Shown here piece after piece: positions 16,371 to 22,454 of a stretch of 23,208 nt of DNA (the stretch's first letter is position 1; every line of letters starts with the position of its first letter). This stretch comes from a virus. The notes below the pieces were generated by a model. The model was not told the origin of the DNA, ran no database searches, and saw only the letters and a list, made by a program, of their open reading frames with translations. Made by a program: the position numbers and the translations under genes. The stretch spans positions 1 to 23,208 of IMG/VR virus record IMGVR_UViG_3300012944_000063. The stretch is one strand, 5' to 3'.

Positions 16371-16618
16371 CGCCAGTCGGCGCTGGCGGCCAGGGCGACG
16401 ACGTGTTCGGCTTCCCAACAGCCCGGCCGGTGGCGCACCAACGCCGCCGTGCCGCCTCGGGCGGCGGCCACCTCGGTCAGGGCCATGGCCAACAGGTCGG
16501 GGAGGTTGGGACCGGCGAACACCCCCGGCTGCGCCTGGCGGGGTGGGTCGCAGCTGTCGAGGGCGGCGGTGATGGCGGCCACGAGACCGGCCAGCACCTG
16601 ATCGGGCGACGCAGGCAT
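16367..16618 (-). CDS. minus-strand hypothetical gene next to attP
   Basis: An 83-aa protein on the strand opposite to all lytic genes, starting at the ATG complementary to 16616-16618; GTG codons at 16633 and 16654 are alternatives. The sequence is protein-like and not a shadow: helices with DQVLAGLVAAITAALDS, a GPNLPDLLAMALTEVAA segment and VRHRPGCWEAEHVVALAA. No family is recognised. A gene transcribed against the lytic operon beside the attachment site is a typical place for prophage-expressed cargo or a regulator, but this is inference. No clear promoter was found upstream. Confidence 0.6.
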   Translation of the reverse strand: MPASPDQVLAGLVAAITAALDSCDPPRQAQPGVFAGPNLPDLLAMALTEVAAARGGTAALVRHRPGCWEAEHVVALAASADWR

Positions 16619-16931
16619 GGCGCATGGTGCCACGGCGCCCCGACTGGCGCCCACGTCGCCCTGTAGCGAGCGCGATGGGGTTGGCGGCCCTGGTCATACC
16701 CGGCGCCCCCCCAACGCTCGCCACAGGGCCACGTAGCGCCGTCGGGCCCCGCGGCCGGCGCCGGCCTGAGAGCGTCACAGTGTCGGGGTGAGGGTCGCGC
16801 CGGCCGGTGCGTCGGAGGGGCGCCGGCCGGCGCCGACGACGATGCTCACCCTGCAATGGGCACCCTGGCGCACCCGGAATCACTGACGTGCATGTAGGGT
16901 CATGGGTGATCACGTGAAGGTGCCGGTCGTG

Positions 16932-16974
16932 TTGCCAAGGTGAAGGTCAGGGGTTCGAGTCCCCTCGTCCGCTC
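16932..16974 (+). other. attP: attP core matching 3' half of tRNA-Gly(GCC)
   Basis: The 43 nt read as the 3' half of a tRNA: anticodon loop TTGCCAA (anticodon GCC, 16932-16938), anticodon stem GGTGA, variable AGGTC, T-arm AGGGG-TTCGAGT-CCCCT (16949-16965), acceptor strand CGTCCGC and discriminator T. U73 with GCC fits tRNA-Gly. The bases before 16932 (TCGTG) do not pair with GGTGA, and no 5' half of a tRNA lies upstream. This is therefore not a tRNA gene but the phage copy that rebuilds the host gene on integration. Tyrosine integrases commonly cross over in the anticodon loop. The integrase gene starts 129 nt downstream. Confidence 0.88.
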
Positions 16975-16977
16975 GAA

Positions 16978-16996
16978 ACCCCAGGTCAACTGGGGT
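16978..16996 (+). terminator. small hairpin directly after attP core
   Basis: ACCCCAG (16978-16984), loop GTCAA, CTGGGGT (16990-16996): a perfect 7-bp stem with a 5-nt loop. No U-run follows. It could stop transcription coming from the host tRNA gene or from the left, or be part of the attP architecture. Confidence 0.45.
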
Positions 16997-17102: not shown

Positions 17103-18044
17103 ATGGCCCAACGACCCAACGACCCGCTGGTGGCCGAGTTCATCGACGACACCGACTGGACCCCCCACGTCAAGGCCAACGCGGTGTCGACCTTCAACCG
17201 CTACGTGACCTGGTGCGCCGGCCGGCCGGTGGCGCTGCTCGAGGTGCGCCGGCCCGACCTGCGGGCGTTCCTGGACCACCGGCGCGAGACGGTGGCGGCG
17301 TCGACGCTGCGTACCGACTGGCGGATGCTCAAGGCCTTCTACGCCTGGTTGGCGACGCCGGTGGCCGAGGGGGGCGGCGGCGAGCTCACCCGCGACCCCA
17401 TGGCCGGCGTCAAAGGCCCGAAGCTGGCCGGCCGGCCGTCGACCACCGCCGCCCGCCCCGACGACGTCGCCACCGTCGAACGGGGGTTCCCGGCCACCGA
17501 GGCGGGCCGGCGCAACGCCGCCATGGTGTCGCTCATGTTCCGGTCGGGGATGCGCGTCGGGGAGCTGGCCCCCCTCGATCTCGCCCACTACCAGGTGCGC
17601 CCCGACGGCCACGCCGTCCTGTTCATCCCCATCACCAAGACGCTGGAGCCGCGGTGGGTGCCGGTGCATCCCGAGACGCAGCGCTACCTGGAGCGCTACC
17701 TACGCCGGCGCGGCCGGGCCGCCGGCCCCCTGTTCCGGGGCGAGGGCGACCGCACCAAGGCCATCGACGGCCGCCTGACCACCCGGTCGATCCAGCTGGT
17801 GGTGCGGCGCATCACCGCCCGCCTGGGGGTCAAGTTGTCGCCCCACCAGCTGCGCCGCGCCTTCACCGCCGAGTATCTACGCGCCGGTGGCGATGTGGTG
17901 TCGCTGGAGATCATCGGCGGGTGGGCCGATCACCGCATGCCGCGCCGGTACCTGGCCGACGAGGAGGCGGCCGCCGCCGTCGACCGCTACTTCGACGTGG
18001 TGGCCACCCCGCGGCCCCGGCGTCTGCAGGCGGTGGGAGCATGA
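17103..18044 (+). CDS. int: tyrosine integrase
   Basis: A 313-aa site-specific recombinase that integrates the phage at the tRNA-Gly target. The N-terminal SAM-like core-binding domain spans about residues 8-95. The catalytic domain holds Arg151 (SGMRVGEL), Lys179 (PITKT), His248 and Arg251 (PHQLRR), Trp274 in the second-His position (GGWADH), and nucleophile Tyr283 (RRYLAD). All are in place, so the enzyme should be active. There is no large extra arm-binding domain beyond the first few residues, so arm binding may be weak or rely on partners. AAGGAG ends 9 nt before ATG 17103. The gene lies directly beside attP and overlaps the next small gene by ATGA. Confidence 0.95.
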   Translation: MAQRPNDPLVAEFIDDTDWTPHVKANAVSTFNRYVTWCAGRPVALLEVRRPDLRAFLDHRRETVAASTLRTDWRMLKAFYAWLATPVAEGGGGELTRDPMAGVKGPKLAGRPSTTAARPDDVATVERGFPATEAGRRNAAMVSLMFRSGMRVGELAPLDLAHYQVRPDGHAVLFIPITKTLEPRWVPVHPETQRYLERYLRRRGRAAGPLFRGEGDRTKAIDGRLTTRSIQLVVRRITARLGVKLSPHQLRRAFTAEYLRAGGDVVSLEIIGGWADHRMPRRYLADEEAAAAVDRYFDVVATPRPRRLQAVGA

Positions 18045-18438: not shown

Positions 18439-18648
18439 TTGACGGATACCGAATCGGGCGCCCAACTCCTGTCCGTCGTCGAGGTCGGTGAGTGGCTCCA
18501 CCTCCACCCGCAGACGGTGCGCCGGTACATGAACACCGGCGCCCTCGGCTTCGTGCGGGTGGGCCGCTACCGCATGGTCTCGCTCGACCAGCTCGTCGCT
18601 TTCATCACCGCCCGCCGCACCGACGGCGACGGCAACGGCGACCACTAG
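18439..18648 (+). CDS. excisionase-like helix-turn-helix protein
   Basis: A 69-aa DNA-binding protein of the MerR-like/excisionase type. The core is residues 10-60: LLSVVEVGEWLHLHPQTVRRYM (helix-turn-helix) then GALGFVRVGRYRMVSLDQLVAF (wing and following helix), the normal layout of these proteins. It starts with TTG 18439; CGGAGG at 18425-18430 is 8 nt upstream, while the ATG directly after that purine run ends after three codons. As the only HTH protein found, it may be both excisionase with the integrase and a regulator of the early genes. The His/Gly/Asp tail has no known role. Confidence 0.85.
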   Translation: MTDTESGAQLLSVVEVGEWLHLHPQTVRRYMNTGALGFVRVGRYRMVSLDQLVAFITARRTDGDGNGDH

Positions 18649-21524: not shown

Positions 21525-21585
21525 CGCCGGGCCGGTGGGGGCGATCTCACCCTCATGTTGATGTGGGGAACCCACCGGCCCGGCG
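21525..21585. terminator. bidirectional terminator, 15-bp perfect stem
   Basis: CGCCGGGCCGGTGGG (21525-21539) is the exact reverse complement of 21571-21585. The 31-nt loop can fold further (CCCTCAT against ATGTGGG with one mismatch). It lies right after the primase stop and before the end of the convergent minus-strand gene at 21603, so it can stop transcription from both sides. No U-tract is present, as is common in high-GC actinobacteria. Confidence 0.75.
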
Positions 21586-21602: not shown

Positions 21603-21716
21603 TCACCACCAGCCGAGGCCGGCGCCGATGCTCCACACCACACCGCCAGCCATCGACGTCAACCAGGCGTAGAGCCAGAACAGCTCGGCCCGGCTCGGCT
21701 CGCCGTCGCCGGTCAT
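21603..21716 (-). CDS. 37-aa membrane peptide
   Basis: A tiny protein starting at the ATG complementary to 21714-21716. It has a soluble acidic start (TGDGEPSRAE) and one transmembrane helix at about residues 12-32 (LFWLYAWLTSMAGGVVWSIG), ending GLGWW. The ATG overlaps the stop of the upstream minus-strand gene (ATGA), the coupling seen in the rest of this genome, which supports it as real. Known phage peptides of this type include superinfection-exclusion and antiholin proteins; the function here is unknown. Confidence 0.55.
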   Translation of the reverse strand: MTGDGEPSRAELFWLYAWLTSMAGGVVWSIGAGLGWW

Positions 21717-21889
21717 GGGTCGAGATCGTCGAGGAGCACGGCGGCCAGCATGGCGGTGTTCGACTGCGGCGGGTAGTCGAGCACGTCGGGCCCCGCGTCC
21801 GCGAAGGCCGCGACCATGGCCTCGATCCCCGCGGCGGCCTCGCGCAACTCGCGGGCCAGCGTCGTCAGTTGCGCGGTCGTCAGTCGCAT
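21713..21889 (-). CDS. 58-aa hypothetical protein, first gene of minus-strand pair
   Basis: A 58-aa helical acidic protein read from the ATG complementary to 21887-21889 to a TGA at 21713-21715. Key segments are LTTAQLTTLARELREAAAG, DAGPDVLDYPPQ and MLAAVLLDDLD. Codons keep the high third-position GC of real genes here. It is translationally linked to the TM peptide. A 14-bp palindrome lies 14 nt upstream of its start codon, and a TACCGT-like -10 box (complement at 21897-21902) is 7 nt before the start. It could be a regulator or half of a small two-protein system. Confidence 0.58.
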   Translation of the reverse strand: MRLTTAQLTTLARELREAAAGIEAMVAAFADAGPDVLDYPPQSNTAMLAAVLLDDLDP

Positions 21890-21917: not shown

Positions 21918-22006
21918 ATTCGGCATGACGGTGATCGCCGGTGCGTACCGATGCCGGCCGGTGCGCGTCTCGACCCCTAACCCCTACCCTTCCAACATCA
22001 TCACTA

Positions 22007-22114
22007 GCGCGGGGGGTGCATAGGGTGCAGAGGGTAGGTGTCTACATGACGCGAACGCATTATCACTATGGCGGGGACGTCAAACAGGACGCCAACCCTC
22101 TGCACCCCCCGCGC
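22007..22114. repeat. large interrupted inverted repeat in divergent region
   Basis: The right arm ACCCTCTGCACCCCCCGCGC (22095-22114) is fully matched by the left arm, which is split: GCGCGGGGGGTGCA at 22007-22020 and GAGGGT at 22030-22035, with TAGGGTGCA (22021-22029) inserted. The loop (22036-22094) is AT-richer than its surroundings. GGGTGCA occurs at 22014-22020 and 22023-22029, with its complement at 22101-22107. CCTACCCT (21984-21991 region) and AGGGTAGG (22031-22038) form a further dyad. It could be an origin, a terminator or a regulator site between the divergent transcripts. Confidence 0.75.
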
Positions 22115-22166: not shown

Positions 22167-22454
22167 GTGCAGCTCCACCTTGACGGCGTGCCGCCGCCCC
22201 TGCCGCGGGTGGGCCGCGTCTACGACGGCGACTGGGAGGTGGTGCGCCGGTTCGTGCTCGAGCGCGACGGCTTCGTGTGCCAGTGGTGCAAGGGGCCGGC
22301 CACCACCGGCGATCACGTCGAGGCGCTCGTCGATGGTGGCGCCCGTCTCGACCCCGCCAACATCGTGGCGGCGTGCATCCCGTGCAACTCCCGCCGGGGC
22401 GCCGAGGCGGCGCGGCGCCGGCACTCGTTGGGGGAGCTGTCGCGTGACTGGTGA
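22167..22454 (+). CDS. HNH endonuclease
   Basis: A 95-aa nuclease of the HNH family. The ordered motif is Cys38-x2-Cys41, Asp49-His50 (TTGDHVEALVDGG), Asn65 (LDPANIV), Cys70-x2-Cys73-Asn74. The cysteines bind structural zinc, and His50 and Asn65 sit at the metal-dependent active site. Small HNH enzymes near terminase genes are known to be needed for cos cleavage or packaging; here the gene would be about 1.4 kb from the terminase if the window closes to a circle. Start GTG 22167 follows a -10 box by 7 nt. It overlaps the methyltransferase by GTGA. Confidence 0.88.
   Translation: MQLHLDGVPPPLPRVGRVYDGDWEVVRRFVLERDGFVCQWCKGPATTGDHVEALVDGGARLDPANIVAACIPCNSRRGAEAARRRHSLGELSRDW

Follow-up and report, generated by a model that had tools for sequence, protein, structure and literature searches.

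A GGGTGCA inverted repeat as a probable replication origin for a phage PrimPol-helicase

A 108-nt inverted repeat at positions 22007-22114 of a 23,208-bp virus fragment (hereafter the window, meaning the whole stretch of DNA analyzed) is probably the phage replication origin used by the PrimPol-helicase encoded upstream of it, as judged by comparison with other genomes. A sequence-only reading of the window had named an origin recognized by the PrimPol initiator as the first of two alternatives, and the comparative evidence favors it. In other phages and prophages, genes for PrimPol/SF3-type helicases are followed directly on their 3' side by the same arms, and inverted iteron arrays occur 3' of the gene in the window's own initiator family. 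Computation showed the repeat, its capacity to fold, its low-GC center, and the association of these arms with primase-helicase genes elsewhere.

The inverted repeat and its genomic surroundings

The window carries terminase, portal, capsid, and tail genes ordered as in small actinobacteriophages, and its nearest terminases are those of Gordonia phages and Rhodococcus phage RRH1 (34-37% identity). A close relative of the whole phage was not found. The element occupies a 277-bp gap between a minus-strand operon and a rightward HNH gene, that is, between divergent genes and after the primase-helicase as first described, on the 3' side of the PrimPol-helicase gene and 484 bp from it with two minus-strand ORFs between. 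These two ORFs (21603-21889; 58 and 37 aa) gave no convincing family matches. The shorter inverted repeat at the PrimPol stop codon is probably a bidirectional terminator rather than an origin. Comparison of the element and of a related Nocardioides element (locus L194) with isolated phages by blastn gave no match, and relatives of the ParB-methyltransferase, when followed, did not lead to a homologous non-coding region.

Table 1. Features of the element and its neighborhood in the window
Feature	Position	Strand	Remarks
PrimPol (PF09250) fused to P-loop helicase, predicted C-terminal winged helix	19025-21523	+	Proposed initiator
Inverted repeat at PrimPol stop codon	21525-21585		Perfect 15-nt arms, 31-nt spacer; between convergent genes
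Small ORF, 37 aa, TM-like	21603-21716	-	Overlaps 58-aa ORF by ATGA
Small ORF, 58 aa, first of two-gene operon	21713-21889	-	Overlaps 37-aa ORF by ATGA
Tandem ACCCCTA/ACCCCTACCCT	21973-21991	+	Left of arms; putative accessory sites
Left arm	22007-22042	+	Two GGGTGCA units (22014, 22023) and 9-nt insertion TAGGGTGCA
Lower-GC center	22043-22087		Presumed unwinding region; contains CTACATGACGCGAACGCAT, like CTACCTGCGTGACGCGCGCAT of locus L004
Right arm	22088-22114	-	One GGGTGCA unit, minus strand (22101)
HNH endonuclease (PF01844)	22167-22454	+	First gene right of element

The sequence-only reading had described a 20-nt right arm matched by a left arm with a 9-nt insertion, three GGGTGCA units, and an AT-richer loop, and each of these was found in the sequence. 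The right arm at 22095-22114 reads GCGCGGGGGGTGCAGAGGGT in reverse complement, and the left arm from 22007 reads GCGCGGGGGGTGCA, then the insertion, then GAGGGT. At full length, the left arm comprises GCGCGGGGGGTGCA, the insertion, and GAGGGTAGGTGTC, the right arm is GCGCGGGGGGTGCAGAGGGTTGGCGTC in reverse complement, and 25 of 27 positions pair when the insertion is set aside. Three of the five GGGTGCA copies in the record fall within the element. The center (22036-22094) has a G+C content of 54% versus 71% for the record, and the 60-mer starting at 22030 is the joint lowest-GC 60-mer of the record. The tandem repeat (ACCCCTA copies starting at 21973 and 21980) and the CCTACCCT/AGGGTAGG dyad (21983-21990/22031-22038) also exist, but they are placed at the edge of the element rather than packed within it, and the earlier start coordinate of 21981 was about 25 nt too far left. 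Two iteron sets flank a low-GC region, with a low copy number (three full heptamers). Counts of repeated 7-mers in the window showed no peak at the element (rank 78-143 of 229); a hairpin with a small number of iterons describes it better.

Folding was judged against dinucleotide shuffles. As RNA, the 201-nt region reached -101 kcal/mol (z = -5.9, with 0 of 200 shuffles as stable), and z was -4.6 for the opposite strand and -4.0 with DNA parameters. Of 660 sliding 140-nt windows, the two that folded best both lie on the element, which makes it the record's strongest folding site. Its gapped inverted-repeat score was unmatched by 500 shuffles of the divergent region; slightly higher raw inverted-repeat scores came from GC-rich sequence at 16.5 kb and 0.7-0.9 kb. 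Given these z-scores, the top-ranking windows, the shuffled scores, and the low-GC center, the inverted repeat is more than chance. A separate GC-rich segment with strong inverted repeats, 16560-16910, lies before int and gave the fourth-best folding window (z = -5.0). Cumulative GC skew had its minimum at 22204, which agrees with an origin here but is weak evidence in so short a record.

Occurrence of the same arms at other loci

A pattern built from the window arms alone, GTGCAGAGGGT-N(40-70)-ACCCTCTGCAC, had one other match among 2.9 million viral contigs. At this locus, L004, the repeat lies inside a gene for a 1562-aa protein that joins PrimPol, a D5-type helicase, and a family-A polymerase (PolA), directly after the helicase domain. 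Since neighboring genes were not used in the search, the primase-helicase context of L004 is an independent outcome. The L004 arms are longer and near-perfect (GGGTGCAGAGGGTGCAGG...), and the loop resembles that of the window.

A survey scan for GGGTGCANNGGGTGCA returned 120 viral loci, which were sorted by repeat geometry. D5_N (PF08706) had been searched before this sorting in 16 loci chosen by eye for inverted repeats, and controls were searched later; the final set of 17 inward-facing loci comprised survey loci plus four new ones from a stricter pattern. D5_N was present in the record of 13 of the 17 inward-facing GGGTGCA loci versus none of 45 direct-pair controls (Fisher p = 2.9e-10), although L157, a direct-repeat locus outside the 45 controls, does carry a helicase homologue. 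The stricter pattern had eight viral matches; seven are in records with D5_N, and the eighth, L174, is 84 bp from a P-loop ORF. At most inward-facing loci, the repeat and the 3' end of a P-loop helicase ORF overlap or are separated by no more than 84 bp. In L071, by contrast, the two are 3 kb apart, and no helicase was found at L147 or L122. Main repeats face outward in L122, L156, and L148, and D5_N was found in none of these three records. In L122, the outward-facing GTGCACCC repeats (2226-2321) form a hairpin beside a terminase gene and represent a different element.

The window element fits the inverted GGGTGCA set in having inward-facing repeats, a hairpin-forming center, and a PrimPol-helicase 484 bp away. 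In 15 of the 17 elements, the center between the iterons folded more stably than shuffled versions of itself (z <= -1.5), with the window reaching -5.9. The check by covariation of the arms yielded no support: in 12 aligned elements, the iteron columns were invariant and the covariation term was about zero. Changes in the 2-nt linker were not diagnostic either, since the iteron of each genome can be a 9-mer. With invariant heptamers and little covariation, a need for the hairpin itself is suggested.

The same repeat type was observed next to other initiators. In L144 (8915-8990) it adjoins a Toprim-VapE initiator, and in L174 (10291-10410) its neighbor is a P-loop protein that matched no Pfam family; the GGGTGCA motif is thus not bound to one helicase family. 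In Streptomyces phages Asis and Mischief19, the primase gene is followed on its 3' side by short GGTGCA hairpins, which may be promoter operators rather than origins.

Searching 257 Gb of bacterial genomes with a looser pattern gave four matches only. Two of them, in Nocardioides (L194) and Acidimicrobiia (L195), adjoin a D5-type helicase gene; the others are a copy without such a gene in a Nocardioides prophage (L197) and a Bacteroidales site that is unrelated. Among 395 Acidimicrobiia genomes, the sole carrier was the one already known, which indicates that the inverted GGGTGCA element is no background motif. A near-identical inverted GGGTGCA element lies upstream of an HNH-terminase gene at L197 (5417-5503)/L200 (8918-9004) in Nocardioides sp. 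Yes46-02. No homologous initiator was found within the 20 kb read of the L197 prophage, where the element may be an orphan origin, a satellite-like element, or a sequence with a different role.

The initiator, its relatives, and competing explanations

The PrimPol domain of the window initiator matched PF09250 (E = 3e-34), and its helicase has the Walker-type motifs PGTGKG and IVLDNID. D5_N was not detected in this helicase, which falls on a separate branch (phrog_10537/29234/19930) from the D5 proteins that use GGGTGCA. With the single window protein as query, no initiator relatives were found among the viral contigs. A full-length structural model was unusable (pLDDT 34), and a model of the last 140 residues reached pLDDT 73 (80-91 in the core) with helix-helix-helix-wing order. 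The C-terminal domain thus models as a winged helix; its structural neighbors were mostly winged helices, weak matches at Z 4-6, below the decisive level, and Foldseek gave no significant match for the domain. Profile comparison supported no relationship between window-type and D5-group C-terminal domains (HHalign probability 7%).

Four independent relatives have inverted iteron arrays directly 3' of the window-type initiator gene, each array being the densest repeat window of its locus. The iterons differ in sequence: TTGCGGGTAT in vir525 (near-identical to L192), TTCCGGTAGT in L191, GCGGGGTT in L193, and AGTGAGCT in Rctr197k. The layout is kept across relatives, and the iteron sequence varies by lineage. 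No repeat peak was found directly 3' of the gene in RcXuper, RpAliso, phiAsp2, and TPWB-08, large phages with related helicases. Inverted iterons around an AT-rich stretch directly 3' of a primase gene were also observed in Paenibacillus phage LincolnB (GTAACAGA; L202, 4664-4950) and in satellite Javan204 (GGTGAC; L204, 4801-5100), so that an isolated phage shares the layout of phage-inducible chromosomal islands (PICI) with a satellite.

The main rival to an origin is an operator: a phage repressor or activator would bind the repeat and thereby regulate the minus-strand and HNH operons from their divergent promoters. Its position in the gap between divergent genes, the repeated half-site dyads typical of operators, and an HTH_17 protein encoded by the phage at 18439 are in keeping with such a role. 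We nevertheless consider it unlikely. A search limited to the sigma-70 consensus found no promoter-like site, the dyad is much longer than usual operators, and the same arms occur at 3' ends of helicase genes and even within coding sequence (L004, L084, L097, L108, and L117), which makes a role at divergent promoters unlikely. A packaging site (cos or pac) just upstream of the HNH gene appears less probable still. HNH relatives lie at genome ends beside terminase (the gene comes last in RRH1 and spans the record ends in Emperor), and the L197 repeat is directly upstream of an HNH-terminase gene; yet in the window HNH and Dam separate the repeat from the right end of the record while terminase occupies the left end, and a cos like that of RRH1 would therefore be expected at the contig ends. 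The neighbors at L004, L084, L117, and L107 are replication or modification genes, with no terminase. The contig has no end repeats.

The element could also be the attP of the tyrosine integrase encoded at 17103-18044, with the repeats as arm-type sites, but it is 4 kb from int, and a better candidate is the tRNA T-arm-like segment GGGGTTCGAGTCCCCTCGTCCGCTC (about 16938-16978) directly upstream of int. This segment is a likely attP core; no host tRNA matching it was found in 198 Acidimicrobiia genomes or in three prophage hosts. An attP role for the element is accordingly very improbable, and we give equally little credence to a transcription terminator or structured RNA. The fold is very stable on both strands, as that last reading would have it, but there is no T-run and no terminator-like site was found, Rfam matches were only sub-threshold microRNA-type hairpins, the element lies between divergent rather than convergent genes, and the 15-nt repeat at 21525-21585 is a better terminator candidate.

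Several observations count against the origin reading as well. The 484 bp and the two-gene minus-strand operon separate the element from the initiator gene, there are only three full heptamers with no 7-mer peak, and the window helicase gave no D5_N match. The large phages with related helicases lack a repeat peak directly 3' of the gene, the near-identical L197 repeat has no homologous initiator within the 20 kb read, and the winged-helix matches are weak (Z 4-6).

Proposed mechanism and known origin systems

By analogy with SaPI Rep, SCCmec Cch2, and pRN1 ORF904, we infer protein binding, ring loading, melting, and priming at the element, leading to bidirectional replication. The predicted C-terminal winged helix of the initiator would recognize the inverted GGGTGCA heptamers (two on the left, one on the right, and some partial copies). 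Two helicase hexamers would then assemble face to face, the low-GC center would melt and could extrude as a hairpin, and the PrimPol domain would prime the exposed strands so that replication proceeds in both directions.

What would be new is a GGGTGCA group that spans differing helicase cores. It is possible, though less likely than not, that GGGTGCA inverted-iteron hairpins are one widespread origin type, common to numerous tailed phages and prophages whether their G+C is low or high. The initiators serving it would differ in their helicase core: PrimPol-D5, Toprim-VapE (L144), a P-loop protein of no assigned class (L174), and the window PrimPol-helicase. The origin and a DNA-binding domain would then be exchanged together among replication systems, or a shared factor would read the motif. 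A search of the open literature found nothing relevant, among the papers listed, tying the GGGTGCA heptamer to origins, which is not proof of absence. To our knowledge, the origins of most environmental phages are unmapped. A sequence signature beside PrimPol/D5-type helicase genes would allow origins to be predicted from sequence alone, and it offers a short DNA target on which the initiator can be tested directly.

Precedents for such origins are known (PMC4234260, PMC6092414, PMC7581432). The SaPI/PICI rep-ori resembles the window in pairing a primase with an initiator helicase, sometimes as one fused protein, and in having an AT-rich stretch bracketed by two groups of short iterons 3' of the initiator gene (PMC6092414, PMC7581432). 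The window element differs in belonging to an ordinary tailed phage and in lying 484 bp from the gene, beyond two minus-strand ORFs; its iterons are few, and the helicase gave no D5_N match. The rep-ori organization was reported from no other bacterial replicon (PMC6092414); if the origin reading is true, this layout, called PICI-confined (PMC6092414), exists in ordinary phages, which bears on the source of the replicons of such satellites. In SCCmec, the C-terminal DNA-binding domain of the initiator helicase Cch2 likewise acts on repeats downstream of its operon at a putative origin, but binding needed direct repeats, not inverted repeats (PMC7581432). Phage P4 alpha, set beside the window by description, has a winged helix that binds origin repeats (the alpha/crr system, as summarized in PMC4234260), on a primase-helicase of the Toprim type rather than PrimPol.

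A counterpart of the hairpin is known from plasmid pRN1. ORF904 combines PrimPol, helicase, and a C-terminal winged helix (predicted in the window), and a stem-loop of ~100 nt, comparable to the 108-nt hairpin of the window, lies downstream of the gene and is required for pRN1 replication (PMC4234260). Similar stem-loop origins have already been proposed for Bordetella phages BIP-1/BPP-1 (PMC4234260). The pRN1 stem-loop is without iterons and its stem sequence is unconserved, whereas the window joins a hairpin with GGGTGCA repeats. Since similar repeats adjoin primase-helicase genes in many unrelated phages, the window element is most likely a further example of a known origin layout, that of PICI/SaPI with a pRN1-type hairpin, and not a new kind.
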